A DNA stretch of 64,000 bases from Nitrospiria bacterium (GTDB taxonomy: Bacteria > Nitrospirota > UBA9217), in contig CAKKRC010000045.1 in assembly GCA_919902495.1 (NCBI GenBank), forward strand, positions 67,162 to 131,161, given 5' to 3'. The notes beneath the pieces were generated by a model. It made no database searches and was not told the origin of the DNA. It was given only the letters and a program-made list of their open reading frames with translations. Below are positions 44,532-59,114 of the stretch, piece after piece (position 1 is the first letter of the stretch; each line of letters opens with the position of its first letter). The position numbers and the translations under genes were made by a program.

Positions 44532-45209
44532 TCAGTTCAGGTCGCCGATCTTCTTTCCCTTTTTGTGACAATTGAGGCAAGCCGCATACCGGGCAGGTTT
44601 TTTCTTCCAGATCTCTTCAAGGTGAGGCTTTCCTTTTTCCGGCTTTTCCATCTTCCCCGCTGTATTGACCGCTGCATACATTCCGCCGGTAACATTCTTC
44701 GACGTGCCATCTCTGAGGGAAACTTCGACCGCTCCTTTACAGGTACACACATCCATTCCCTGCGCGTCCTGGATCACCGAGAACTTGGTGCCCCGGACGC
44801 CGGCGACCGCATTGGAGGTTGCCACGCTCATGGTCCTGCCAGGCGATAACTTTGCCGAGATCCAGAGATATCCGCGTTTGAGAAGGGTCTTGAAGCCGCT
44901 CGCGGGGTCGCCGAGATAGTATTCCGTCCCGGGCCCGATCAGAACTGCGCCGATCTCATTGAGCGCCAGGACAGCCGTGCCATCGGCGCCGGTGCGGACC
45001 CGGTCATTTGCGGAGATCGCCGTGCCAACCACCAGGGGTTTCCACACGTTATTGCTCTGTCGCTCCAATGTTCCGCTCCTGATCTCCTTGACCGTGCCGA
45101 TCGGAGAGGGCGCTGTGCTGCTGTAGCAATGTTCCGGGACTATAACCATGGTAAAGAGTAAAATCAAACAAACGGTAATGATCTGCGCTGAAACGGTCGG
45201 TCTCGTCAC
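44532..45209 (-). CDS. Secreted FecR-domain protein with a CxxCH haem motif
   Basis: A 225-residue protein. A signal peptide (core IITVCLILLFTMVIV) precedes a FecR-like beta domain with DRVRTGADGTAVLALNEIGAV, LLKRGYLWISAKLSPG and TSNAVAGVRGTKFSV. The C-terminus carries CLNCH (Cys211-His215), a single c-type haem-binding motif or metal site. GTG at 45209 is chosen because TAAGGAGGAGAG lies just upstream. FecR domains of this kind are envelope proteins of undefined role, distinct from the TonB-linked FecR regulators. The combination with a haem motif is unusual. Confidence 0.75.
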   Translation of the reverse strand: MTRPTVSAQIITVCLILLFTMVIVPEHCYSSTAPSPIGTVKEIRSGTLERQSNNVWKPLVVGTAISANDRVRTGADGTAVLALNEIGAVLIGPGTEYYLGDPASGFKTLLKRGYLWISAKLSPGRTMSVATSNAVAGVRGTKFSVIQDAQGMDVCTCKGAVEVSLRDGTSKNVTGGMYAAVNTAGKMEKPEKGKPHLEEIWKKKPARYAACLNCHKKGKKIGDLN

Positions 45210-45378
45210 GTTCTCTCCTCCTAACATGCGTAATATACACAGAATGGAACGATGTCTCAAAACACTGCCGAATTATAACATAAAAAGTAGAAAAAGGACG
45301 TGCCGTTAAGAAGTGGTCCGGGCGGGAGTTCTTCCGTGGATAGGGCCGCGGCTATTAATGCATAATAATACTTTCGGC

Positions 45379-45407
45379 TTGACAGGTGTCGGGCTAAGGT
45401 GTATTTT
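45379..45407 (+). promoter_or_regulatory. Promoter of the mvhD-metVF operon
   Basis: TTGACA (45379-45384) and TATTTT (45402-45407), spacer 17 bp. The predicted start near 45414 is directly before a hairpin and a terminator (next entry), so the leader is a candidate attenuator. The remainder of the 312-bp gap 45210-45521 holds nothing recognisable. Confidence 0.7.
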
Positions 45408-45414
45408 ATCTATA

Positions 45415-45465
45415 CTTTCAATGCGTTGAAAGTCTCCAAAGCCCCTCACGGAGGGGCTTTTTTTA
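45415..45465 (+). promoter_or_regulatory. Leader with hairpin and rho-independent terminator before mvhD
   Basis: ACTTTCAA-TGCG-TTGAAAGT (45414-45433) forms a small stem. Then AGCCCCTC-ACG-GAGGGGCT (45440-45458) is followed by seven T residues, a textbook terminator. It lies between the promoter and the first gene of the operon, on the same strand, with no upstream same-strand gene to terminate. The likely role is transcription attenuation or termination of a short RNA of about 50 nt. Confidence 0.65.
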
Positions 45466-45521
45466 CTCTGCTAAATTATTTCTTTATCTCCATGGGCAAG
45501 AGCTTGGGAAAGAGGGCGGGT

Positions 45522-45956
45522 ATGAAAGATGCGAATCGGTCGGTGACTATGCCGCGGATCGTGGTTGTTTATTGCCGCAACGCGGTATCGTCCGCCGCTG
45601 AGCTGCTTGAAGGGCCTTATACCGTAAAAGGATTAAATGCTTTTTTTGCCGCCCTGCCTTGTTCCAGCAAGATAGAACCGTCTTATCTCCTGAAAATCCT
45701 TGCCGACGGTGCGGACGGAGTGCTCGTGGTGGCATGCCCGGAGGGCCATTGCAGGTTTATGGTAGGTAATGTTCGAGCGGAAAAGAGGGTCAACTATGTG
45801 CGGTCGCTCCTGGATAAGGCCAAGATGGGTGCCGAGCGCCTGACGCTGGAGCGGGGAGAAAATCTTACGGAAAAAGATCTTCTGAGTCTGGCTCAGCGCC
45901 GTGTTGAACCGTTGAAAATACTGGGACCCAATCCCATGAAGGGGGATGGAAAATGA
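45522..45956 (+). CDS. mvhD: MvhD-like hydrogenase/heterodisulfide-reductase iron-sulfur subunit
   Basis: A 144-residue protein of the MvhD/FlpD family, a [2Fe-2S] electron carrier between hydrogenase or flavoproteins and HdrA. Family landmarks are IVVVYCRNA, LPCSSKIEPSYLLKILADGADGVLVVAC and PEGHCRFMVGN. The usual CxxC of CNWC-type is reduced to one Cys (CRNA), so the cluster ligand set is incomplete or altered. It overlaps metV by 4 bp. No hdrA, hdrB or hdrC gene is near, so its partner is probably MetV/MetF or the flavoprotein at 47748. Confidence 0.8.
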   Translation: MKDANRSVTMPRIVVVYCRNAVSSAAELLEGPYTVKGLNAFFAALPCSSKIEPSYLLKILADGADGVLVVACPEGHCRFMVGNVRAEKRVNYVRSLLDKAKMGAERLTLERGENLTEKDLLSLAQRRVEPLKILGPNPMKGDGK

Positions 45957-46624
45957 TAATCGCGGAATGGAAACCCCTGCCCGAACTGGTTGAGATACTA
46001 AAAGGGCATACCAATGTGCTGGTGGTGGGATGCGCCACCTGCGTGGCCGAGTGCGCGGCAGGCGGGGAGCGTGAAGTGGAGACCCTTGCGCCGCTGCTGC
46101 AGATGGCGCTCAAACAAGAAGGGCGCACGATCAACGTCCGTACCAGCACGCTGGAACGGCAGTGTGAATGGGAGTTTGTGGAAGAGCTGGCCAAAGTCGC
46201 GCCTCAGGTGGACGCGATCGTAAGTCTTGCCTGCGGCATCGGCATTCAGGCCGTGGCAGAGCGGTTCCCCGAACTGGCCGTATATCCCGGAGTGAACACG
46301 ACGGCATTGGCCATCCGGCAGGAGCCGGGGACATGGCTCGCGCGGTGCGCCGCTTGCGGCGATTGCGTTCTTGGCGAAACATTCGGCTTCTGTCCGGTTG
46401 CCCGCTGCGCAAAGAGCCTATCCAACGGACCCTGCGGCGGTACCAGAAAGAACGGCAAGTGCGAGATCGATGAGAACATCGACTGCGTATGGTACCAGAT
46501 CTACGAGCGGGCAAAGGCCCGCGGTAAAGTCGAGCAGCTCCTTAAAGTACGGAAGCCCAAGAACTGGTCGAACTCAGGCCATGGAGGTCCAAAACGGGTG
46601 GTGCGGGAGGATTTGCGGCCATGA
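45953..46624 (+). CDS. metV: Methylenetetrahydrofolate reductase C-terminal subunit MetV
   Basis: A 223-residue protein of the MTHFR_C (MetV) family. The N-terminal half has VLVVGCATCVAEC and SLACGIGIQAVAERFP. The C-terminal zinc or iron-sulfur region has CAACGDCVLGETFGFCPVARCAKSLSNGPCGG. In acetogens MetV is the iron-sulfur partner of MetF in the methyl branch of the Wood-Ljungdahl pathway. It overlaps mvhD-like and metF by 4 bp, so the three are translated together. Confidence 0.92.
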   Translation: MIIAEWKPLPELVEILKGHTNVLVVGCATCVAECAAGGEREVETLAPLLQMALKQEGRTINVRTSTLERQCEWEFVEELAKVAPQVDAIVSLACGIGIQAVAERFPELAVYPGVNTTALAIRQEPGTWLARCAACGDCVLGETFGFCPVARCAKSLSNGPCGGTRKNGKCEIDENIDCVWYQIYERAKARGKVEQLLKVRKPKNWSNSGHGGPKRVVREDLRP

Positions 46625-47559
46625 TGAAAGCGGGAACCAGACTGGAAAAAACACTTCGCGCCGGACAATTCGCCCTTACCGTTGAAGTTGGTCCACCGCG
46701 CGGCCCCAATCCCGAGGATGTCCTCCGCAAAGCGCAGCAGCTCAAAGGGGTCGCCGACGGCTATAACGTCACCGACAACCAGACCGCGGTGGTGCGCATG
46801 TCAAGCATTGCCGGCGCACGGCTTCTTCTCGATGCCGGATGCGAGCCGATCATGCAGATGACCTGCCGCGACCGCAACCGCATTGCCCTGCAGTCAGACC
46901 TGCTTGGCGCCTGGGCGCTGGGAATGCGCAACTGCCTCTGCCTTTCAGGCGATCACCAGAAAGCGGGCGCCTCGGGGAAGCTCAAAGGTCATCCCGGCTC
47001 AAAAAACGTCTTTGACGTTGACTCGATCCAGTTGATATCGATCCTCAAGGGGATGCGTGACGAAGGCGTTCTTGAAAGTGGCGATCCTATTTCGCAGCCC
47101 ACGCCATTCTTTATCGGCGCGGTCTGGACCCCGCTTGCCCCTCCCGAAGAATTCCGGGTATTGCGGCTTGCCAAGAAGATCGAGGCGGGGGCGGATTTTA
47201 TCCAGACCCAGGCCGTTTTCGACATAAAGCGGTTCGCGACAGCTGTTAAAGCCGCAGCTGACAGGGGGCTCACCGACAGGGCCGCCATTCTGGTCGGCAT
47301 CATCGTTCCCAAATCCGCCAGGATGCTTGAATATATGAATGCCAATGTGCCTGGCGTGGAAGTGCCTGAAGCGCTTATCAAGCGGATGGCCGCGGCAAAG
47401 GACCAGCGCCAGGAAGGGTACCAGATCACCGTTGAGCTGATCCAGGCCGCCCGGAACATCCCGGGTCTGAAAGGGGTGCACCTGCAGGCCATAGAATCAG
47501 AAGAGGTGCTTCCTGAGATCATACGTGCCGCTGGACTCCTGCCCCGACCGCAGGTGTAA
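46621..47559 (+). CDS. metF: Methylenetetrahydrofolate reductase MetF
   Basis: A 312-residue TIM-barrel flavoprotein that reduces 5,10-methylene-THF to 5-methyl-THF. The N-terminal LTVEVGPPRGP carries the catalytic Glu, and MTCRDRNRIALQSDLLGAWALGMRNCLCLSGD is the FAD-binding part. Residues FIQTQAVFDIKRF and GIIVPKSARML are family-typical. The length matches the acetogen-type MetF. Pairing with MetV and an MvhD-like carrier implies that the electron donor is not simply NAD(P)H. Confidence 0.94.
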   Translation: MMKAGTRLEKTLRAGQFALTVEVGPPRGPNPEDVLRKAQQLKGVADGYNVTDNQTAVVRMSSIAGARLLLDAGCEPIMQMTCRDRNRIALQSDLLGAWALGMRNCLCLSGDHQKAGASGKLKGHPGSKNVFDVDSIQLISILKGMRDEGVLESGDPISQPTPFFIGAVWTPLAPPEEFRVLRLAKKIEAGADFIQTQAVFDIKRFATAVKAAADRGLTDRAAILVGIIVPKSARMLEYMNANVPGVEVPEALIKRMAAAKDQRQEGYQITVELIQAARNIPGLKGVHLQAIESEEVLPEIIRAAGLLPRPQV

Positions 47560-47587
47560 CCTGAACCCGGACAAGCAGAACCAAATA

Positions 47588-47708
47588 ATGCCACAACCAA
47601 AAGTAGGCGCTTCTAAGCGAGACACGAAGGCACTAAGAAAACACCAGCAGCACTTGGTTTTGTTTATTTTTAAGATGTTCTTTGTGTCTTAGCGCTTTCG
47701 TGGCTGAG
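47588..47708. repeat. GCCACGAAGG-word inverted repeat with 23-bp insertion (copy 3)
   Basis: The left arm GCCACAA (47590-47596) is interrupted by the 23-bp insertion (47597-47619), then continues AGACACGAAGGCACTAAG. The right arm CTTTGTGTCTTAGCGCTTTC then GTGGC is the uninterrupted complement (47682-47706). It is located 40 bp before the gene at 47748. Confidence 0.85.
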
Positions 47709-47747
47709 TTTTGTTTTCATTTTGTCGTTAACGGATGGTAAGAAAAC

Positions 47748-50714
47748 ATGTCGAAGAAATATCACATTAAGATCGATCCGGCGCCGGCCCGCTTTCCGGG
47801 GGTATCCAAGTATTCCGTGTTGGAAACCGAAGGATGTCTGGGTTGCCTGAACTGCGTTAAGAAGACTTCATGCGTCTACTCCGCCTATGATAAGCGGTCG
47901 TTCGATGCCAAGGCGATCGTGGACAAGACCGATACCCTGTGCGTGGGCTGCATGCAATGCGTCCAGGATTGCAAGAAGAACATTCTCAGTCGCGGTAAAA
48001 ATCCGCGATTCGAAAAAATGGGCAATGCATACTGGACGCCCTCGATCATAGCGGGCATCTGGAAGCAGGCTGAGAACGGCAAGATCCCCGTGTCCGGCGC
48101 CGGATATCGCGGTCCCTTCAGCGGTCCGGGGTTCGATCAGATGTGGACAGACATGTCGGAGATCGTCCGGCCCACTCGCGACGGCATCCATGGCCGGGAA
48201 TATATCAGTACGCTCATCGAGCTCGGCCGGAGACCGTCACGGCTCGTTTTCGACGCCAAGGGCGGCATGGTGACAGAACCACCCACCTTTATCGAATTGC
48301 CACTTCCCATTGTATTGGAAGCCCCTGATCTCGCCCATGTGTCATCCCAAACGATCGAGACCCTTGCGCGCGCGAGCCATCGGGCCGGGACACTGCTGAT
48401 CGTCGATGTCAAAACAGCCAAGAGCATACCGCCCCGTCTCAAAAAAGGATTGATGGTCATCTTCGATCCCGCGGTCGACAAAAAGACCGTACTCAAAGGC
48501 GTTCCCGCGGTCCAGATGGCCTATTCAGCGACCGTGCTGAACGACGTTAACAAACTCAAAAAAGCCCTGCCCGACCTGGTGATTTCAATACGCGTTCCTC
48601 TTGACGAGAATGCGGTGAAACGCGTTGTCAAACTTGCGACGAGCGGCGCCGAGGTGGTCCATCTGTATGCAGATGGAAACGGCAGGGGACTTAAAAAACG
48701 AAAAGCAGACTTTGTTACCACGCTCATGAAGGAAGTGCACTTCAAACTGGTGGATGAAGGTGTGCGCGAAGAACTAACGCTTCTTGTTTCCGGCGGCATT
48801 GCGATGGCCGAACATGCCGCCAAGGCGATACTCTGCGGGGCAGACGGAGTGGGAGTGGACAGCGCGCTGGCGGTAGCGCTGGAGTGCCGTCTCTGCAAGG
48901 CGTGCAAGTCCGAGGTCGCCTGTCCGGTGGAACTGGGGACGGCCCCGGTCGAATGGGCCGAGAAACGGATCGTGAACCTCATCGGTTCGTGGCACTCCCA
49001 GCTCATCGAATTGATGGGCGCCATGGGGCTCCGCGAGGCGCGCCGGTTGCGGGGAGAGCTCGGCCGGGCAATGTTCTTTGAAGACCTTGAGAAGGAAAAC
49101 TTCGGGCCGATATTCGGAGAACGGGTTAAGGGAAATCAGGCCGCGCCATTATTGCCGAACGACATACCCGTCCCTGTTCACGGCAACGGTCACCTGAAAA
49201 CATCGGGCGGCATTGACGTGCTCGTGAAACTCGATCCTTCCCGCTACCGCAACCAATTCGGAAAATTCAAGGTGGTGCGGACCTCCGCTTGCATTGCGTG
49301 CGGCAAGTGCGCCGAGGTGTGCGCCTATGGCGTGCATGTCAAGGCGGGCAGCCGCATGCTTGCTCCAAAGTCGCATTTGTGCCGGGGACGGGAACACTGC
49401 CGCGGCAACGAACGATATTGCGCCGATAACTGCCCGGTGAACGCCATACGGGTGGGTAAAGATCCGCTGTACGAGACGATCGGCGATCCTCGCTGGACCG
49501 CCGACCTGATGATGTCAACATGGCATCAGGCAGAGACCGGCCGTCCGCCGGAAAACGGCCTGGAGTACCGGGTGGGCGAGTCCGGCGGCGGGTTCGATCG
49601 CATCGACTTCAAATTTCCCGAACAGCTTCCGGACCCCTCGCTCAATCCGCAGGATGTGGACCTTTCTATTCCGCTGAATCGCAGAAAGGACGGACGGCCC
49701 GAGGTGAGGATCGGGTTCCCGGTCTATGGCGGTGGGATGAGCTTTGGGTCCGTAAGCCTCACGACCATCCTTTCCCGTGCGGCCGCCTACACCGCGATGA
49801 ACTCATTCACCTGCACCGGCGAAGGCGGTTATCCCGACGATCTCAAGAAATATGACGACCACGTGATCACGCAGATCGCCACCGGGCTCTTTGGCGTGCG
49901 CGAGGAGACCATACAACGGGTGCGCATTGTTGAATTCAAGTATGCCCAGGGCGCCAAACCGGGCCTCGGCGGTCATCTGCTGGGCGACAAGGTCACGCCC
50001 GCCGTGGCGAAGATGCGGGAAGCAGTGGTCGGCTCTGCTCTCTTTTCTCCTTTTCCGTTCCATTCGGTCTACTCGGTCGAGGACCATAAGAAACACGTCG
50101 ACTGGATCAACACCATCAATCCCAAGGCGCTGGTGTCCGTTAAAGTTTCAACACCCTCGGACGTGGACATGGTGGCCGTGGGCAGTTTTTGCGCCGGCGC
50201 GAATATCATCCATCTTGACGGAAGCTACGGAGGCACCGGCGCAGCGCCTGATATAGCCAAAAAGAACATTGCCATGCCGATCGAGTATGCCATACCCAAG
50301 GTGCACCGTTTCCTGGTAGCCGAGGGGATCCGCCCCGAGATGACGCTCATTGTGTCGGGCGGTCTGCGCACAGCCTGGGATGTAGCCAAGGCGATCGCCC
50401 TGGGCGCCGACGGCGTGGTGGTGGGTACGGCGGAAATGGTCGCGCTGGAATGCATCCGGTGCGCGAACTGCGAGAGCGGACGGGGCTGCCCGCGCGGCAT
50501 AGCCACCACCGATCCCAAGTTGAGCGCGATGTACGGCGAGGCCTGGGCCTCCCAGCGGATCATGAACCTTTTCCATTCCTGGTCCCTCCAGCTCCAGGAC
50601 ATTCTCCACCGTTTCGGCATGAAGAGCGTTCGCGAACTGGTGGGCCGGTCGGACTTGTTGCGTCACCGCGATTACGAAAAACGCGAGGAATACCGTAGAG
50701 TGGAGTCAGGATAA
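47748..50714 (+). CDS. Double glutamate-synthase-like flavoprotein with two ferredoxin modules
   Basis: A 988-residue protein built from two similar halves. Half one: a ferredoxin-like segment (Cys30/33/36/42 and Cys65/68/71/75) and a degenerate glutamate-synthase barrel (about 140-440; LLVSGGIAMAEHAAKAI, then CRLCKACKSEVACPVELGTA). Half two: another ferredoxin segment (CIACGKCAEVC and CADNCPVNA, about 500-560) and a canonical FMN barrel (about 640-960; YGGGMSFGSVS, LIVSGGLRTAWDVAKAI, CANCESGRGCPRGIATTDP). Half two looks catalytic; half one has lost the first barrel strands. It overlaps the glutaminase gene by one base and follows metF. Confidence 0.85.
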   Translation: MSKKYHIKIDPAPARFPGVSKYSVLETEGCLGCLNCVKKTSCVYSAYDKRSFDAKAIVDKTDTLCVGCMQCVQDCKKNILSRGKNPRFEKMGNAYWTPSIIAGIWKQAENGKIPVSGAGYRGPFSGPGFDQMWTDMSEIVRPTRDGIHGREYISTLIELGRRPSRLVFDAKGGMVTEPPTFIELPLPIVLEAPDLAHVSSQTIETLARASHRAGTLLIVDVKTAKSIPPRLKKGLMVIFDPAVDKKTVLKGVPAVQMAYSATVLNDVNKLKKALPDLVISIRVPLDENAVKRVVKLATSGAEVVHLYADGNGRGLKKRKADFVTTLMKEVHFKLVDEGVREELTLLVSGGIAMAEHAAKAILCGADGVGVDSALAVALECRLCKACKSEVACPVELGTAPVEWAEKRIVNLIGSWHSQLIELMGAMGLREARRLRGELGRAMFFEDLEKENFGPIFGERVKGNQAAPLLPNDIPVPVHGNGHLKTSGGIDVLVKLDPSRYRNQFGKFKVVRTSACIACGKCAEVCAYGVHVKAGSRMLAPKSHLCRGREHCRGNERYCADNCPVNAIRVGKDPLYETIGDPRWTADLMMSTWHQAETGRPPENGLEYRVGESGGGFDRIDFKFPEQLPDPSLNPQDVDLSIPLNRRKDGRPEVRIGFPVYGGGMSFGSVSLTTILSRAAAYTAMNSFTCTGEGGYPDDLKKYDDHVITQIATGLFGVREETIQRVRIVEFKYAQGAKPGLGGHLLGDKVTPAVAKMREAVVGSALFSPFPFHSVYSVEDHKKHVDWINTINPKALVSVKVSTPSDVDMVAVGSFCAGANIIHLDGSYGGTGAAPDIAKKNIAMPIEYAIPKVHRFLVAEGIRPEMTLIVSGGLRTAWDVAKAIALGADGVVVGTAEMVALECIRCANCESGRGCPRGIATTDPKLSAMYGEAWASQRIMNLFHSWSLQLQDILHRFGMKSVRELVGRSDLLRHRDYEKREEYRRVESG

Positions 50715-53368
50715 TGAAACCTAAAGCAGCCAGCAAACGCAACCCGTGGAGCGGTACAGGCCGTGATCCGCGGTTCCCTGAAATAATAACCGCCTCCCGT
50801 GCCGACTTCACGACAGGCCCTCAGAACGCCCGTGAAAAATCAGCCGAAGAGGGCGGTTGCGGCGTGGTCGGCTTCGCAGCCACCGTGCCGGTGCGGGGAA
50901 GACATATCTTCGAGCCTTCCATGCAGATGCACAACCGGGGCAACGGCAAAGGCGGCGGCATCGCGGCAGCTTCCCTGCAACCCGAGGACCTGGGGGTGGA
51001 TGCCGCGACGCTGAAGAACGATTACATCCTTCAGATCGCGCTGATCGATCCGGCCGCCGAGCAGGAAGTGGAGAAATACGGCATAGCTCCCTGGCTCAAC
51101 GTCGAACACAAGACCCGTATACAACCCGTTGCAGACCACCGGGACGTCGGTCTGGAGGTGAAGCCGCCGGACATCGTGCGCTATTTTGTACGCGTCAAGG
51201 ACAACGTGCTCAGCCGGTTTGCCAAAGAGCACGGGTTGGGCAAATCGGACCGGCGCCTGGTCGAGGACGAGTTCATCTTCCGCAACAGTTTTAAGATCAA
51301 TCGCCGGTTCTACGCCTCATTGGGCGACAAACGCGCCTTTGTGCTTTCCCACGCGCGTGATCTTGTGATATTCAAGATCGTGGGGTACGCTGAACAGGTC
51401 GTTAAGTATTACGGGCTCACCGACATGCGCGCCAAGATCTGGATCGCCCATCAACGCTATCCCACCAAGGGCCGGGTCTGGCATCCCGCGGGTGCGCATC
51501 CATTCATCGGCATGAATGAGGCGCTGGTCCATAACGGAGACTTTGCCAACTACTTCGGCGTGACCGAATATCTGCGGCAGCGCAACCTCGTTCCCCAATT
51601 TCTCACCGACACGGAGGTCTCGGTCCTTCTCTTCGACCTGCTCACCCGCGTATACGGGTACCCGCTGGAATATGTGATCGAGGCGATGGCCCCCACTACC
51701 GAGATCGACTTCGACGCCCTCCCCGAGCGCAAGAAGAAGATCTATCGGGCCATTCAGGCCCAGCATATGCACGGATCACCAGACGGCCCGTGGTTCTTCA
51801 TCATCGCGCGCAGCGATCCGGACCAGTGCAAATACCAGCTTTTGGGGATCACCGACACCTCCATGCTGAGGCCGCAGGTGTTCGCCATCCAGGAGGGCGA
51901 CGTTTCAATCGGACTCATTGGTTCCGAGAAACAGGCGATCGACGCCACGCTGCAATCTCTTGCCGAGGAGGACCCGCGTTTCCGACATGTGGCCGATCGG
52001 TACTGGAATGCGCGCGGCGGCAGCTATACCGACGGCGGAGCCTTTGTTTTCACGGTAAACACAGCTGGCGACAGCACGACAATTTCCTGCGCCGACAAGT
52101 TCGGAAAGCCTATCAGCGCGCCTGCCGGACAGTGGAGGATCGATCTTAGCCGGACGGCAACAATAGCGGACCAATGGAAGGGCCGGATCACCGCCGGTCT
52201 TTCCACCGGAAGCGATCATGCGTTGTTCGGCGAGCTTACGGAAGCATTCCTTTCCTGGGACCTTGATCAGGTTCGTGTTGCGATAGATCTGATCTGTTCA
52301 GCCGCCGCGATTGATGACCAACAGTTCGAGACCGCTTTGCAGGTGCTTACGCTCCTGATGGACCGCCGGTACGATTGCGGTCCCAATAAAAGGAGCGCGA
52401 TCCTCCACCTTCTGCAAAACGGGATTAGCCGGCTCCTAGACTCGGTCCTGCCGATAACAAACAACGACCCGGGACGTTATCACCGGGTGGACTTTTTCAC
52501 GCGCGATCAACTCGGTGCGCCGCAGCGGACTGATGGGACCCTGGTGGTCTTCAGCCGGGATTTTCAGCCCGAGGGCAATGATTGTGATGCACTGCTGCTG
52601 GCCCGGGCATTCCGGCTTGGTTGGAAACGCTTCATCGTGTACGGGCTCAAGGGCCAGCGGTTCACCGGGTGCAGCTTCGGGCCCGCGACTGACGGCGTCC
52701 GCATCGACGTGTATGGAAGTTCCGGGGACTATCTCGCATCCGGGATCGACGGTATGGAGGTCCAGATCCACGGCAATGGCCAGGACCAACTTGGCCAGAT
52801 ACTCAAGCGCGGGACGCTCGTGGTGCACGGTGATGTGGGCCAGGCGTTCATGTACGGCGCCAAAGGCGGTGAGATCTACATCATGGGCAATGCAGCCGGC
52901 CGTCCGCTCATCAACGCGGCAGGCCGTCCGCGCGTGATCATCAACGGAACCTGTCTTGATTTTCTCGCGGAATCATTCATGGCCGGCGATCCGCACAACG
53001 GCGGAGGATTCGTTGTATTGAACGGCGTGGAATTTGACGATCGTGGCGCGGTCCGCGTTCAAAACGCGCCATATCCCGGATCAAACCTGTTTTCGCTCGC
53101 TTCCGGAGGAGCAATATTTGTACGCGATCCCCATCACACGATCGGCAAAGAAAAGCTGAATGGCGCTGAGTTCGCAGAGATGACCCAGCAGGATTGGCAC
53201 CTCATTCAGCCGTATCTCCTTACAAATGAACGCCACTTCGGCATTTCAATAGAACGGGACCTTCTGATGGTTGACGGCAAAGCCAGTTCGCCGCTCTCGG
53301 TGTATCGTAAAGTGCGTCCGGTGAAGGCTGCGGCGCTTGCCAAAAAGGTTGAGACATCCGATGAATAG
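50714..53368 (+). CDS. Glutamine amidotransferase (class II) fused to a GXGXG domain, glutamate-synthase type
   Basis: An 884-residue protein. The class II amidotransferase has its nucleophile at Cys49 in GGCGVVGF, so a 48-residue propeptide would need removal, as in E. coli GltB. HQRYPTKGRVWHPAGAHPF and ALVHNGDFANYF supply the Arg and Asn-Gly of the active site. The C-terminal GXGXG beta-helix (about 690-800) has GNGQDQLGQILKRGTLVVHG and GAKGGEIYIMGNAAGRP. Together with the 47748 product it rebuilds a GltB-like complex, but without an NADPH module. Confidence 0.88.
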   Translation: MKPKAASKRNPWSGTGRDPRFPEIITASRADFTTGPQNAREKSAEEGGCGVVGFAATVPVRGRHIFEPSMQMHNRGNGKGGGIAAASLQPEDLGVDAATLKNDYILQIALIDPAAEQEVEKYGIAPWLNVEHKTRIQPVADHRDVGLEVKPPDIVRYFVRVKDNVLSRFAKEHGLGKSDRRLVEDEFIFRNSFKINRRFYASLGDKRAFVLSHARDLVIFKIVGYAEQVVKYYGLTDMRAKIWIAHQRYPTKGRVWHPAGAHPFIGMNEALVHNGDFANYFGVTEYLRQRNLVPQFLTDTEVSVLLFDLLTRVYGYPLEYVIEAMAPTTEIDFDALPERKKKIYRAIQAQHMHGSPDGPWFFIIARSDPDQCKYQLLGITDTSMLRPQVFAIQEGDVSIGLIGSEKQAIDATLQSLAEEDPRFRHVADRYWNARGGSYTDGGAFVFTVNTAGDSTTISCADKFGKPISAPAGQWRIDLSRTATIADQWKGRITAGLSTGSDHALFGELTEAFLSWDLDQVRVAIDLICSAAAIDDQQFETALQVLTLLMDRRYDCGPNKRSAILHLLQNGISRLLDSVLPITNNDPGRYHRVDFFTRDQLGAPQRTDGTLVVFSRDFQPEGNDCDALLLARAFRLGWKRFIVYGLKGQRFTGCSFGPATDGVRIDVYGSSGDYLASGIDGMEVQIHGNGQDQLGQILKRGTLVVHGDVGQAFMYGAKGGEIYIMGNAAGRPLINAAGRPRVIINGTCLDFLAESFMAGDPHNGGGFVVLNGVEFDDRGAVRVQNAPYPGSNLFSLASGGAIFVRDPHHTIGKEKLNGAEFAEMTQQDWHLIQPYLLTNERHFGISIERDLLMVDGKASSPLSVYRKVRPVKAAALAKKVETSDE

Positions 53369-53944
53369 GCGTGCCTCCAAGGGCTCCAATCAAAATAAGA
53401 TTTTGATAAAATTCGCAACTCCGAAAACATTGCACTTAATCTTTCATTTCGCAAAGTGCGGCATGATCCTACCTTCGGTTCGTGAATGATGCGAAAAGTA
53501 CCGCGCGTTTCACCATGCTTTTTCCCCTCGCACCTCGATGTGCGTCACTTTCCTCGGATTCGCAGTGCCCGCGGTGTAAGCGCTGGCCCCATGCGGAAAC
53601 CCCTTCATCGAGCAATTTTCGCTTGACAGAAAAGCTTAACCCGGTGTATTGTACGCATTCGCACGGCAAGACATTGCCTTCAAAAAGCCCTTCGTTTTTA
53701 TGGGTTTTTGCCGCTATTTGAGGATGTAAACCACTGGCCGTTCGTTCTCCTGAAGAGGATATTTCTCGCCGGCAGTCCGGTCCTGATGAACAGAACCAAG
53801 CCATATCTAACATCCCTAATCCAAAATCCAGCTATAACAAAATGATAGACCGCCTGGGTATTGGTTGTTGCATATTGTATTGTGATTATACCTGCCCGGG
53901 AGTGTTCTTCAACATTGCTGGCTTGTAAGAAGAGGAGCAACAGT
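53369..53944 (+). other. Gap before the second glutamate synthase operon, with promoter and long leader
   Basis: A 576-bp region without genes. A promoter at 53623-53652 (TTGACA, spacer 18, TATTGT) would start transcription near 53659, leaving a leader of about 285 nt. The leader contains a T-rich hairpin CAAAAAGCCC/GGGTTTTTG (53681-53710). No riboswitch consensus was recognised. The rest of the leader is AT-rich without repeats. Confidence 0.6.
53623..53652 (+). promoter_or_regulatory. Promoter of the split glutamate synthase operon
   Basis: TTGACA at 53623-53628 and TATTGT at 53647-53652, spacer 18 bp. It is the best promoter match in the 576-bp gap. Confidence 0.65.
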
Positions 53945-55054
53945 ATGTGCCGTTTGAGCGCGATCACGTCGAATGCTTATTTCTCCCCCATGGAGAACAT
54001 CCTGGCATTGGAGACCATGAAGGAAGGACACGACGGGTCCGGTCTTGGCCTGATGCTGAAGGATCTGGGCGGCCCCTTTGAGGAGTTCAAGGGGTATCCC
54101 GTCCTGTCAGCCGTATGCTCGAACCAGGGCCTTCTGGACCTGGATGAATACATGAAGGCGAACGGGTTCAAAGAAAAGTTCACCTGGGCGCCGAACATCA
54201 AGAACGTACCGGGCGTCGAACGCCGGGAGAACTATCTTGCCAAGGTGTACGATTATCCCGAGAGCTACCGGGACAAACCGATGACTGAGAAGGAAGACCT
54301 GCTCATGAATACTCGGCTGGCCCTGCGAAAGATCGGCGAGACTGACGAGTCGATCTTCGTCTTTTCGTTCTATCCCGATGTTCTAACCTTGAAGGAAGTT
54401 GGCGATCCGCTCCATGTCGGCGAGTTCTTCGGATTGGACAAATCAGACATTTCGGCAAAGATCATTCTCGCCCAGGGCAGGCAGAACACGAACTATGCCA
54501 TCTATCTCTACTCGTGCCATCCCTTCTTCATTCAGGGCTACGGCACCATGACGAACGGTGAGAATACCGCTTTCGTTCCGATCCGTGAGTACCTTTCCGG
54601 CCGCGGCAATCCCGGGTACATAGGCTACAACTCGGATTCCGAGGTCTTCACGCATATCCTTCACTTCACCAACAGGACCCTCGGTTATCCCCTCCATTAT
54701 TATAAGGACGTCATCACGCCGCTCAAAGAGAGCGAGATCGAGATGCGGTCCGACGCGGCGGCGCTCCGGCTGATCAAAAAATCGCTTCGACCGCTCTGTA
54801 TCGACGGCCCCAACTGCGTCATCGGTTTCACCCCCGACGGCTTCGTCTTCATGGTGCAGGACGCGAAGAAGCTCCGTCCCGGCGCGGTCGGCGGAAAACC
54901 CGGAAAGTACGCGCTCATGTCCGAGGTGTGCGGCGTGGACCGGGCGGTCCCGGATAGGGACAGGACCACGGACATCTTCCCCATGAAGTACGACACGGTC
55001 ATCATCGCGCCCGGTGCGCTGGAGGTCAAGGTATGGAATCAGCTTCACGGCTAG
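53945..55054 (+). CDS. Glutamate synthase glutamine amidotransferase subunit (split type)
   Basis: A 369-residue class II amidotransferase with the nucleophile at Cys2 (MCRLSAITSN), so only the initiator Met must be removed. Other landmarks are GHDGSGLGLML, FEEFKGYPVLSA and TMTNGENTAFVPIREYL, which carries the Asn-Gly of the oxyanion hole. It releases ammonia from glutamine for the FMN subunit encoded next. This one-domain form is known from archaea and many anaerobes. It overlaps the next gene by 22 bp. ATG 53945 has AGAGGAG upstream. Confidence 0.9.
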   Translation: MCRLSAITSNAYFSPMENILALETMKEGHDGSGLGLMLKDLGGPFEEFKGYPVLSAVCSNQGLLDLDEYMKANGFKEKFTWAPNIKNVPGVERRENYLAKVYDYPESYRDKPMTEKEDLLMNTRLALRKIGETDESIFVFSFYPDVLTLKEVGDPLHVGEFFGLDKSDISAKIILAQGRQNTNYAIYLYSCHPFFIQGYGTMTNGENTAFVPIREYLSGRGNPGYIGYNSDSEVFTHILHFTNRTLGYPLHYYKDVITPLKESEIEMRSDAAALRLIKKSLRPLCIDGPNCVIGFTPDGFVFMVQDAKKLRPGAVGGKPGKYALMSEVCGVDRAVPDRDRTTDIFPMKYDTVIIAPGALEVKVWNQLHG

Positions 55055-56688
55055 ATCAGAACCATCAGCTCACGCTGAAGGAGTTCCCCTATATCATTCA
55101 GTGGCGCGAGGGCCGTTGCACCCGCTGCGGCCGCTGTACCGCCGTCTGCCCCATGAAGGCCATCGAGCCCGCGGTGACCATTCAGCGGCTCGTACGCTCC
55201 GAAGGAGACAACCCGACGCCCAAGGTCTCGCGAACCGTTTCCCACGTGGTCAAGCAGGTCACGGACATCGAACGCTACTGCATCGGCTGCGGGACCTGTA
55301 CGCTCGTTTGCCCCACGGACGCCATCTTCCCGGAGTACAACTTCCAGCATAAGTTCTACCATGTTAAGAACAAAGGCGGCATTCCTTACATGCGAGGCGG
55401 CCGGAGGAACGACCCTTCGGTCTCGACGCTTGATAAGCTCAAGTTCACGCGCATCTCCATGCTCACTGACCCGGCGCTCGACGCAGGCAGACACGAGTTC
55501 CGCATCAGGACGCTCCTCGGCAGGAATCTCCCGGCGGAGCACCTGCCCATCAAGGTGGACGGGGACCGGCTCACCATCGGCGCTGGTGAGTTCGTTCCGC
55601 CGGTCCGGGAGATCTACCCGATCCGCATCGGAAGCATGTCCATCGGCGCACTTTCTCCCCATATGTGGGAGGGGCTCGCCATGGGCATCACGTACCTGAA
55701 CGAGGTCGAAGGCCTGCCGGTGGTTATGTGCTCCGGTGAGGGCGGCATGCCGCCTTCGCTCTTGAAATCGCGCTACATGAAGTACTTCATCCTTCAGATC
55801 GCCTCGGGCTATTTCGGCTGGGACGAGATCATCCGGGCGCTGCCCGACATGGTCGAGGACCCCTGCGCCATCGAGATCAAGTACGGCCAGGGAGCCAAAC
55901 CCGGCGACGGCGGGCTGCTCCAGGCGTACAAGGTGCTCGGGCTCATAGCCAAGATCCGCGGCGTACCGCAGTTCGTTGACCTGTCTTCACCGCCCACTCA
56001 CCAGACGCAATACTCCATCGAGGAGTCCGTCGCCAAGATGATCCAGTCCATGTCCATGGCCTGGGGATTCCGCGTGCCCGTGTATCCCAAGATCTCGGGC
56101 AGCAAGACGGCGCGGGCAGTGCTCAATAACCTGGCGCGGAACCCCTACGCGGCCGCGCTCTGCATCGACGGCGAGGATGGCGGCACCGGAGCGGCTTACA
56201 ATGTGTCCATGGACAAGATGGGGCATCCCATCGCTACGAACATACGTGACTGCTACCTGGACCTCGTAAAGCAGGGCAAACAGAATGAACTGCCGCTTAT
56301 TGCGGCCGGAGGCGTGGGAAAGACCGGCAGTCTCGCTGCCAACGCTGCGGCGCTCATCATGCTGGGGGCATCGGCGGTGGACATCGGGAAGTACATCATG
56401 CAGACCGCGGCTGGCTGCTTCGGCGATGAACACAACCGGTGCAACGTCTGCAATCTCGGCAGGTGCCCGCGCGGAATCACCACGCAGGACCCGAAGCTCT
56501 ACCGCAGGCTCGATCCCGACAAGGTCGCCGAACGGGTGGTCGAGGTCTTCAAGTCGGCCGACGTGGAACTCAAAAAGATCTTCGCGCCGCTGGGCAGGAG
56601 CACCGAGCTCCCCATCGGCATGTCCGACGCGCTGGGCGTCGGCGACAAGGACATCGCGGACCGGCTGTCTATCAGTTACGTATGTTAA
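55033..56688 (+). CDS. gltB: Glutamate synthase FMN-binding subunit with 2[4Fe-4S] domain (split type)
   Basis: A 551-residue protein. The N-terminal ferredoxin domain has CTRCGRCTAVCPMKAI (about 29-44) and CIGCGTCTLVCPTDAI (about 83-98). The rest is the glutamate-synthase FMN barrel: IGSMSIGALSPHMWEGLAMG, KYGQGAKPGDGG, DGEDGGTGAAYNVSMD and the [3Fe-4S]-binding CNVCNLGRCPRGITTQDPKL. It joins ammonia to 2-oxoglutarate to give glutamate. The ferredoxin domain suggests that ferredoxin can feed it. It is the canonical counterpart of the second half of the 47748 protein. Confidence 0.92.
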   Translation: MESASRLDQNHQLTLKEFPYIIQWREGRCTRCGRCTAVCPMKAIEPAVTIQRLVRSEGDNPTPKVSRTVSHVVKQVTDIERYCIGCGTCTLVCPTDAIFPEYNFQHKFYHVKNKGGIPYMRGGRRNDPSVSTLDKLKFTRISMLTDPALDAGRHEFRIRTLLGRNLPAEHLPIKVDGDRLTIGAGEFVPPVREIYPIRIGSMSIGALSPHMWEGLAMGITYLNEVEGLPVVMCSGEGGMPPSLLKSRYMKYFILQIASGYFGWDEIIRALPDMVEDPCAIEIKYGQGAKPGDGGLLQAYKVLGLIAKIRGVPQFVDLSSPPTHQTQYSIEESVAKMIQSMSMAWGFRVPVYPKISGSKTARAVLNNLARNPYAAALCIDGEDGGTGAAYNVSMDKMGHPIATNIRDCYLDLVKQGKQNELPLIAAGGVGKTGSLAANAAALIMLGASAVDIGKYIMQTAAGCFGDEHNRCNVCNLGRCPRGITTQDPKLYRRLDPDKVAERVVEVFKSADVELKKIFAPLGRSTELPIGMSDALGVGDKDIADRLSISYVC

Positions 56689-56760
56689 TAGTGATTAGTA
56701 ACTAGTTATTGGGAAATTGAGTTGACGGCTTTCCTGATTCACATAATCACTAAATTTCGC
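56689..56760. repeat. AT-rich inverted repeat between glutamate synthase genes
   Basis: TAGTGATTAGTAACTAG at 56696-56706 region and ATTCACATAATCACTAAATT at 56738-56757 share the GTGATTA/TAATCAC word in inverted order. It resembles the nuoK-nuoL spacer. Confidence 0.55.
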
Positions 56761-56789
56761 AATCTCTTCATTACTGCGTTGAGGGAACG

Positions 56790-59114
56790 ATGATCATTCA
56801 GGGCAATATAGACGGAAAACGGGTCTCCTCCAAAGTTCTCGAAGAACAGCTCCAGAAGGCCATCAAGGACGGAGCAAGGGAGATCACGGTCAAGGCCGAC
56901 GGCCAGCATGGCATCGGCGGCAGGATATGGCCGCAATTCGGCGCGGTGAAGGTGACCATCGAGGGCACCGCCGGGCAGCGTGTCGGCAGCATGGGCATGC
57001 ACACGACCGAGATCGTCGTGAAGGGCTCTACTTCCGACGACACCGGGTGGCTTAATTGCGGCTCGGTCATCACGGTTCTCGGCGATGTGGCCAACGGTGC
57101 GCACAACGCGGCTGCCCAGGGCAAGTTGTATGTGCAGGGCGGCGGCGGCGCGCGCTGCGACACCATGACCAAGAAGAACCCGCGCTTTTCAGACCTCGAG
57201 TCCTGGTATTTCCGGGGAGTAGGGGACTCCTTCGCCGAGTTCAAGGCCGGAGGCATCGCCGTTGTCTGCGGCGTGGACCCGCGCGATCCGGAGAATGTCC
57301 TGGGATATCGACCCTGTGTGGGCATGGTCGGCGGTACGATCTATTTCCGCGGCCCCATCAAGGACTACAGCAAGGGAGCCGTGAAGCTCATGGACCTTAC
57401 TCCCCAGGACTGGGAGTGGCTCACCGCGAATATGAAGCCTTACCTTCAAGCCATTGACCGTATGTCCTTCTACGAAGAACTGACCAAGGACATAGCTGTC
57501 TGGAAGAAACTCATCGCCTCTACCCCTGCCGAACGGGCCAAGGTCAGGGGCAAGCTCAAGATGGGCCTGACCGAGTTCCGCCTGAACGTCTGGGAGAAGG
57601 AAGTTGGCACGGGGGGAATGTTCGGCGCCTATCTGACCCATGACCGGTCCGTATTGCCCTATGTCACCACCGGTGAGGAGCGTCGCTGGAAGCCGAGCTG
57701 GAAGAACGACCAGTACCTGCCGCCGTGCGCCTATGCCTGCCCGTCGCGCATCCCGTCGCACAAGCGCGCGACCCTCCTGCGGCAGGGGAGGACAGCCGAG
57801 GCCCTGTCGCTCGTGCTTAAGTACAGCCCGCTCCCGGCAACGGTCTGCGGCACTGTCTGCCCGAACCTCTGCATGACCGACTGCACCCGCGGAAGGATCG
57901 ACCAGCCGCTCAACATCAAGGAATACGGCGCCGTCGCGCTGGACATCAAGGCCCCGAAAAAAGCGAAGGCCACGGGTTTCAGTGTGGCCGTCATAGGCGG
58001 CGGTCCCGGCGGCCTTTCAGCGGCATGGCAGCTGGGCCTGAAGGGCCATTCCGTAGACCTCTACGAGGCCGGCAGCAAGATCGGCGGCAAGCTCGAGATG
58101 TGCATTCCTCGCGAACGCCTGCCGAAGAAGATCCTGGACAAGGAGCTTTCCCGTTTTGCCGAGATCGGTGTGCATGTCCACGTGAAATCTCCTGTGGACC
58201 GGAAAAAGTACGACAAGATCTATAAGGACCACGATGTGGTGGTCGTTGCCGTCGGCGCCCATGAAGGCCGTGTCATACCCTTCCCGGGACACGAGGACGT
58301 GGTAAAGGGCATCGACTACCTCAAGGAGATCAATTTCGGCAAGCCGAAGGACCTGAAAGGTCAGAAGGTCGTCGTGATCGGCGCGGGCAACGTGGGCATG
58401 GACATCGCCTGCCAGGCATTTGACCACGGAGCGGGAACCGTGACCGCTGTTGACGTGCAAAAGCCGGCCAGCTTCGGCAAGGAACAGGAGCTGGCGAAGC
58501 AGAAGGGTACCCAGATCCTGTTCCCGAAGGTAACCGAGCGGTATGACGCCAGGGCAAAAAAGCTCTATTTCAAGGACGGCACCAGCATCGATGCTGATCT
58601 GGTGATCATCTCGATCGGCGAGAAACCGGTACTTGACTTCCTGCCTGCAGAGGTCCACACCGACCGGGGCTACATAGTCGTGAACGAGCTCGGCCAGTCC
58701 TCGGATGTGAAGGTCTTTGCCATCGGCGATGCGACAAAGCCGGGCCTTGTGACCCATGCGATCGGCCAGGGCAAGGTAGCCGCGGATGCGATCAACGCAC
58801 AGCTGATGAACTTCGATTACATCCCCGAGGAACGGCGGGTGATCCCCTACGAGCGCATCAAGACCCAGTACTACGAGGTCTGCAGGATGGTGGGAAAGTT
58901 CTCGGCGAAGAAGGAGGCCGACCGCTGCATGAGTTGCGGGTCCTGCCGCGACTGCGGCATGTGCGTTGAGTCGTGCTACTACGGCGCTATCACGCGCAAG
59001 ACACTCCCCAACAAGTCATTCGAGTACGTTGTCGATGAGAACCGCTGCATCGGCTGCGGATTCTGCGCGGGCATCTGCCCCTGCGGGGTCTGGGAAATGG
59101 CCGAGAACGTTTAG
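56790..59114 (+). CDS. gltD: GXGXG domain fused to GltD-like NADPH oxidoreductase and ferredoxin
   Basis: A 774-residue protein. An N-terminal GXGXG glutamate-synthase domain (about 1-230; GGRIWPQFGAVKVTIEG, GDVANGAHNAAAQGKLYVQG) is followed by a GltD-type module. The latter has an N-terminal [4Fe-4S] region (CAYACPSRIPSHK, CGTVCPNLCMTDC), FAD motif VIGGGPGGLSAAWQLGLKG, and NAD(P) motif VIGAGNVGMDIACQ. Two ferredoxin clusters end the protein (CMSCGSCRDCGMCVESC, CIGCGFCAGICPCG). It supplies electrons to the FMN subunit at 55033. A terminator follows. Confidence 0.9.
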   Translation: MIIQGNIDGKRVSSKVLEEQLQKAIKDGAREITVKADGQHGIGGRIWPQFGAVKVTIEGTAGQRVGSMGMHTTEIVVKGSTSDDTGWLNCGSVITVLGDVANGAHNAAAQGKLYVQGGGGARCDTMTKKNPRFSDLESWYFRGVGDSFAEFKAGGIAVVCGVDPRDPENVLGYRPCVGMVGGTIYFRGPIKDYSKGAVKLMDLTPQDWEWLTANMKPYLQAIDRMSFYEELTKDIAVWKKLIASTPAERAKVRGKLKMGLTEFRLNVWEKEVGTGGMFGAYLTHDRSVLPYVTTGEERRWKPSWKNDQYLPPCAYACPSRIPSHKRATLLRQGRTAEALSLVLKYSPLPATVCGTVCPNLCMTDCTRGRIDQPLNIKEYGAVALDIKAPKKAKATGFSVAVIGGGPGGLSAAWQLGLKGHSVDLYEAGSKIGGKLEMCIPRERLPKKILDKELSRFAEIGVHVHVKSPVDRKKYDKIYKDHDVVVVAVGAHEGRVIPFPGHEDVVKGIDYLKEINFGKPKDLKGQKVVVIGAGNVGMDIACQAFDHGAGTVTAVDVQKPASFGKEQELAKQKGTQILFPKVTERYDARAKKLYFKDGTSIDADLVIISIGEKPVLDFLPAEVHTDRGYIVVNELGQSSDVKVFAIGDATKPGLVTHAIGQGKVAADAINAQLMNFDYIPEERRVIPYERIKTQYYEVCRMVGKFSAKKEADRCMSCGSCRDCGMCVESCYYGAITRKTLPNKSFEYVVDENRCIGCGFCAGICPCGVWEMAENV

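Follow-up and report, generated by a model that had tools for sequence, protein, structure and literature searches.

A predicted glutamate synthase without GltD and its candidate MvhD-type electron input in a Nitrospiria bacterium and bacteria of other phyla

The subject of this analysis is a five-gene cluster, mvhD-metV-metF followed by two large genes of the glutamate synthase type, in a 64,000-nucleotide stretch of DNA (hereafter the window) from a Nitrospiria bacterium (GCA_919902495.1, contig CAKKRC010000045.1, positions 67,162 to 131,161 of the forward strand). We propose, with a probability of roughly one half, that the cluster encodes a glutamate synthase (GOGAT) that works without GltD and is fed with electrons through MvhD, MetVF being one swappable donor, so that methyl-tetrahydrofolate (methyl-THF) would drive the formation of glutamate. 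To our knowledge, NAD(P)H and ferredoxin are the electron donors of the known glutamate synthases.

Organization of the gene cluster

The order described in an earlier note on this DNA, mvhD, metV, metF, a double ferredoxin-barrel gene (DB) and GATase-GXGXG, all co-directional on the plus strand, was confirmed by the coordinates and by Pfam. The three small proteins matched FlpD/MvhD (8e-21), MetV DUF5981 (7e-33) and MTHFR (9e-36); the two large ones matched Glu_synthase (2e-105) and Fer4 domains (DB), and GXGXG (PF01493, 4e-12) and GATase_6 (5e-5). Overlaps of 4 bp (mvhD/metV and metV/metF) and 1 bp (DB/GATase-GXGXG) were observed. The features are listed below with their lengths in amino acids (aa); FMN is flavin mononucleotide.

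45522..45956, +, mvhD-like [2Fe-2S] adaptor, 144 aa (Pfam, cysteine alignment)
45953..46624, +, metV, 223 aa (Pfam; cluster cysteines conserved)
46621..47559, +, metF, 312 aa (Pfam; all family-conserved residues kept)
47748..50714, +, DB, 988-aa double ferredoxin-barrel glutamate-synthase subunit (Pfam, structure prediction, Foldseek)
47835..47972, +, first ferredoxin domain of DB (C30, C33, C36, C42, C65, C68, C71, C75)
48216..49097, +, first barrel of DB (A), predicted TIM fold, without the catalytic block (model and alignment)
49290..49433, +, second ferredoxin domain of DB (C515-C562; cysteine positions)
49686..50621, +, second barrel of DB (B), intact FMN/2-oxoglutarate synthase domain (Pfam and alignment)
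50451..50489, +, four-cysteine motif C902-x2-C-x2-C-x5-C914, at the position of the GOGAT [3Fe-4S] site (alignment)
50714..53368, +, GATase-GXGXG subunit, 884 aa, with a 48-aa propeptide before Cys49 (Pfam, predicted fold)
50858..50860, +, codon of Cys49, predicted catalytic N-terminal glutaminase nucleophile (C49-G50-V51 invariant)
52688..53161, +, GXGXG beta-helix domain (Pfam)

Signatures of a rearranged glutamate synthase

Judged by their conserved signatures, DB and GATase-GXGXG together are predicted to form a genuine glutamate synthase with rearranged domains. The best Foldseek matches of both proteins were glutamate synthases; the predicted structure of the 884-aa protein (predicted local distance difference test, pLDDT, 80.7) was closest to glutamate synthase, and GOGAT, GlmS and PurF were among its matches. 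The glutaminase motifs Cys49-Gly-Val and HNRG...HQRYPTKG...VHNGD are invariant in 37 rows, and the domain is predicted to be a class II glutaminase with its N-terminal cysteine nucleophile behind a propeptide, whose cleavage is likewise predicted. Barrel B matches the FMN/synthase domain of glutamate synthases (2vdc/1ea0, E = 8e-53) and keeps the catalytic block K-x-AQGAKPG-x-GG in 81 of 81 rows. At its cluster site four cysteines (C-x2-C-x2-C-x5-C) are found in all rows except two cut ones, against three in canonical enzymes, a pattern that may hold either a [3Fe-4S] or a [4Fe-4S] cluster. A central domain of the GltB type between the glutaminase and synthase domains was not found in the DB/GATase pair, and GltD is missing both from the five genes and from most clusters homologous to them.

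The catalytic block is absent from barrel A in all 80 rows. Barrels A and B align from end to end (E = 8e-60, 29% identity), and in profile comparison with canonical GltB barrel A matched the synthase domain (98%, E = 3e-13) and not the central domain (21%); it is therefore a tandem duplicate that has lost the block. A long Foldseek alignment had hinted that it might be the counterpart of the GltB central domain; this candidate was rejected by the same profile comparison, which assigned it to the synthase domain and barrel B. The TIM fold of barrel A is kept in the predicted structure despite the catalytic loss, and the eight cysteines of its ferredoxin domain, which account for two clusters, are invariant in an alignment of 30 diverse rows. 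The degeneracy of this barrel, claimed in the earlier note, is therefore borne out, and the docking or electron-transfer role suggested there fits the combination of a lost active site and invariant ferredoxin cysteines.

The genes surrounding homologous clusters point to nitrogen metabolism: glnA, amtB, PII and glnD were confirmed by Pfam, the first three being frequent neighbors, and 12 of 34 extended loci have glnA on the upstream side. In 30 of the 49 cluster-bearing genomes, including the complete L085 chromosome (CP070768), no second strongly matching GOGAT synthase domain was found beside that of the cluster, and in eight of these 30, several of which are drafts, a match to the glutamate dehydrogenase family is absent as well. 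It had been suggested that the glutamate-synthase-like module might be a mere electron carrier for methylene-THF reduction. This suggestion is disfavored by the intact glutaminase and synthase signatures, the nitrogen-gene neighbors and the sole-GOGAT genomes, owing to which the electrons more likely flow into the GOGAT part.

Conservation across phyla

A genome scan yielded 312 loci with relatives of the cluster, of which the best 80, ranked by similarity, were kept. These 80 loci span Desulfobacterota, Planctomycetota, Verrucomicrobiota, Fibrobacterota, Chloroflexota, Bipolaricaulota and Poribacteria, and most of them have the order mvhD-metV-metF-DB-GATase, with DB split into two genes in many Desulfobacterota. 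In order to offset the similarity ranking, an even sample of 198 genomes of Desulfobacterota (the phylum of L085) was also analyzed. Barrel A was present in 57 of them, and was rarer in two other phyla (5/149 and 5/151 genomes). Because the gene order recurs both in most of the 80 related loci and in the even sample, it is far from chance. The earlier note had asked for conservation beside metVF in distant lineages, which was found across several phyla, and double-barrel proteins were not usually located away from metVF in the loci surveyed. In three Desulfobacula loci (L097, L099 and L103) an ordinary split glutamate synthase (GltB2/GltD3) also adjoins the cluster, as in the window.

Upstream redox modules

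The upstream genes were read at 52 loci of the even Desulfobacterota sample, four further loci being left out. A redox module lies directly before barrel A in all 51 loci with enough upstream sequence (the 52nd is cut off). It consists of MetF with MetV/MvhD, directly or nearly directly upstream, at 29 loci, of MvhD alone at 14, of MvhD/MetV without metF at five, and of a flavin adenine dinucleotide (FAD) oxidase at three. These arrangements suggest that MetV can serve without MetF; metV without metF was seen before the GOGAT genes at L085, L173, L174, L176 and L182. In the FAD-oxidase clusters (L200-L202, L106 and L109) a flavoprotein with an Fe-S domain replaces MvhD-MetVF, and L203, beside glnA, encodes a single 2528-aa protein in which FAD oxidase, Fe-S domain, A, B, GATase and GXGXG are joined. 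In four distant relatives where no module was recognised upstream, the cysteines of the A ferredoxin are partly or wholly lost. Such oxidase swaps and fusions, and such a loss of cysteines where the module is missing, are what one would expect if electron-donating modules plug in at the first ferredoxin.

Residues C18, C47, C72 and C77 of MvhD are invariant in 58 GOGAT-linked homologues. GOGAT-linked MvhD usually lacks the second cysteine of the CxxC present in Hdr-linked MvhD. The MvhD tree places GOGAT-linked sequences on one side and Hdr-linked sequences on the other (support 80, which is not strong), and wherever both modules occur at one locus there are two MvhD, one of each kind. As MvhD groups by its GOGAT or Hdr linkage and MetVF has joined repeatedly (see below), MvhD would seem to be a subunit of the core, with MetVF as a partner that can be exchanged. 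The coupling of metVF to GOGAT put forward in the earlier note thus stands as a conserved linkage, but the constant partner is MvhD, not MetVF. A different partner of MetVF, a fused NuoF-like and GltD-like flavoprotein of about 1040 aa, is encoded directly upstream of metV-metF at L118, L125 and L127.

Evolution of the cluster and its arrival in the window

In the MetF tree the GOGAT-linked sequences fall into two clades that are set apart by HdrA-linked MetF, and a single clade, and with it a single origin, was rejected by the approximately unbiased test (p = 1.35e-5). On these grounds MetVF joined the GOGAT genes, or was replaced there, at least twice. In a third lineage (L058, L059 and L111) metVF lies downstream of the GOGAT genes.

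Only 1 of 198 genomes of the window's own phylum contains barrel A, a member of the same family (L207) has crp-gltG1-gltB2-gltD3 without the cluster, and the flanking gltG1/B2/D3 genes are 92-95% identical to those of a same-genus genome (L204). The cluster was therefore acquired by horizontal transfer beside a resident glutamate synthase. The identity of the flanks and the arrangement in L207 also led us to reject contamination of the contig. The full, ordinary split glutamate synthase reported next door is indeed present at 53861-59114 (Pfam), and the redundancy that had seemed unexplained is accounted for by this acquisition. The 397-aa product of its first gene (53861-55054) had no Pfam or NCBIfam match above threshold.

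Hdr genes in the same genomes

HdrABC is absent from this cluster and from most homologous loci. The statement that there is no hdr gene thus holds for the cluster but not for the genome, as another contig (C18) carries hdrC-hdrB-hdrA-mvhD-metV-metF with acs genes. Most cluster-bearing genomes have other MetV copies, many of them beside HdrA and MvhD, and an acetyl-CoA synthase domain was found in 43 of 50 genomes. The Hdr-linked mvhD of contig C18 (L113, 6549-7140) reads through an in-frame TGA (FVAG*LKGQCHY), and at this site the window MvhD has a cysteine. The methanogen protein VhuD can carry selenocysteine at the matching TGA position.

Intergenic regions and neighboring genes

Two candidate regulatory features were found upstream of mvhD:

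45379..45407, +, sigma-70-like promoter, TTGACA-17-TATTTT, 10/12 (consensus match only)
45438..45460, +, terminator- or attenuator-like GC-rich hairpin with a T tail, about 60 bp 5' of mvhD (sequence scan)

The position of the hairpin after the promoter-like site makes an attenuator possible. A riboswitch before mvhD was considered and rejected, the leader (45379-45521) giving only a weak match below the Rfam threshold. The gap between metF and DB (47560-47747) is 188 bp, longer than in most relatives, and holds a long imperfect hairpin (CACGAAGGCAC...GCGCTTTCGTGG) whose fold stability is not significant (z -1.15). A transcript break at this point had been named as evidence against coupling, and a sequence scan of the gap for promoter- and terminator-like sites gave none. 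A gene on the minus strand (44532-45260), for a FecR-domain protein with CxxCH near its C-terminus, separates crp from mvhD.

Proposed electron path and alternative explanations

We propose that electrons would enter the GOGAT via the adjacent [2Fe-2S] protein MvhD, in place of GltD, and would run from the ferredoxin of the dead barrel A to the second ferredoxin, then over the Cys4 cluster to the FMN of barrel B, where glutamine-derived ammonia and 2-oxoglutarate would yield glutamate. MetV-MetF would dock on MvhD as the donor, MetF converting methyl-THF to methylene-THF and passing the electrons on. This path builds on what the sequences show: which domains are present, that the catalytic residues are conserved, that the first active site has been lost, that the gene order is conserved and that upstream modules are swapped. 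What we infer is that the proteins form one complex and that electrons take this path in this direction, which could also be the reverse. In Sporomusa ovata, MetF was pulled down by MvhD, and MetVF oxidises methyl-THF with artificial acceptors (PMC9430772).

Several points weigh against this proposal. The 14 MvhD-only loci and the five with MetV but no MetF, among 52, indicate that MetF is dispensable and that MvhD can take electrons from another source. The hairpin-containing 188-bp gap separates metF from DB in the window. The potentials are about -200 mV for the methylene/methyl-THF couple (PMC9430772), and about -240 mV for the FMN and -280 mV for the [3Fe-4S] cluster of GOGAT (PMC8097209). 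As the GOGAT centres lie slightly below methyl-THF, the transfer would need a pull by the product. Glutamate formation would provide the final pull on electron transfer.

The frequency of MvhD-only loci, together with the HdrA-MvhD-MetVF genes elsewhere in the same genomes, could also mean that MvhD is the electron input of GOGAT but is fed in trans by HdrA or ferredoxin, with MetVF as a second client, so that low-potential electrons would serve both glutamate synthesis and methylene-THF reduction. Hdr genes, MvhD-MetV-MetF and MvhD-A-B-GATase occur in one run at L183 and L186, and similarly at L199, and two reports describe clostridial and Sporomusa MetVF as taking ferredoxin electrons (PMC8515935, PMC9430772). 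However, most clusters have no adjacent hdr gene, and the FAD-oxidase clusters and the natural fusion place a substrate-oxidising donor in the same slot; we consider this explanation rather unlikely.

MvhD-MetVF might also be an independent methylene-THF reductase that works with HdrABC from elsewhere and shares no more than a promoter with GOGAT, nitrogen and one-carbon demand rising together. A survey took MetFV-MvhD without local hdrABC as part of a bifurcating Met complex with HdrABC supplied in trans (PMC6085437), and some neighboring genes use glutamine (purF, carAB and nadE). That MvhD stays directly before A where MetVF is absent, differs from Hdr-linked MvhD in the tree and in the usual loss of the second CxxC cysteine, and that MetVF was recruited to the same spot more than once in genomes that mostly have another MetV copy, often with HdrA, makes such independence improbable. 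Bifurcation, which has been proposed for HdrA-type MetVF complexes (PMC6085437), could couple exergonic glutamate synthesis to a low-potential carrier via a flavin in DB or MetF, in either a bifurcating or a confurcating mode, and the proteins carry many Fe-S clusters. Pfam, though, recognised no second flavoprotein domain in the cluster apart from MetF and barrel B, and barrel A has lost its catalytic block, so that we regard this mode as very improbable.

Comparison with known systems

GltBD and ferredoxin-dependent GOGAT gave the best sequence and fold matches to the cluster enzyme, which has their glutaminase module, their FMN synthase barrel with the K-x-AQGAKPG-x-GG block and their GXGXG module. 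Unlike them, it is split and reordered in two (or three) chains, has two extra ferredoxin domains, a dead second copy of the barrel and a Cys4 instead of a Cys3 motif, lacks the central domain and GltD, and has MvhD and MetVF upstream. The HdrABC-MvhD-MetVF complex has the same MvhD-MetV-MetF gene order and cofactor residues, whereas in the cluster glutamate synthase replaces HdrABC and MvhD belongs to a separate group, usually with one cysteine fewer. In the archaeal-type split glutamate synthase, as at 53861-59114 of the window, a ferredoxin domain is also joined to the FMN barrel and other modules are on separate chains, but there is a single barrel with a three-cysteine motif, and a GltD-like flavoprotein is fused to GXGXG. 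The putative F420-dependent glutamate synthases of ANME archaea (PMC9012536) resemble the cluster in having an unusual electron-input subunit inferred from the gene neighborhood, which is of the FrhB F420 type there and MvhD-MetVF here. No publication on a glutamate synthase linked to MetVF or MvhD was found in the open-licence PMC literature, which is weak evidence of absence. Both halves are of known kinds, and what may be new is their joining.

Biological meaning

We tentatively see here, at slightly less than even odds, a methyl-THF-driven GOGAT that would link the methyl branch of the Wood-Ljungdahl pathway to nitrogen assimilation and, in a wider sense, a family of GOGATs whose input modules (MetVF and FAD oxidases) oxidise a substrate and can be plugged in. 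If this is true, carbon and nitrogen assimilation would be joined by direct electron transfer, sparing NADPH in energy-limited anaerobes, and MetFV-MvhD sets without local hdrABC that were read as parts of a bifurcating Met complex would need re-reading. With barrel A present in 57 of the 198 genomes sampled from one phylum, and with the cluster apparently holding the sole GOGAT in many, the cluster matters for the way in which many sulfate reducers and related bacteria assimilate nitrogen.

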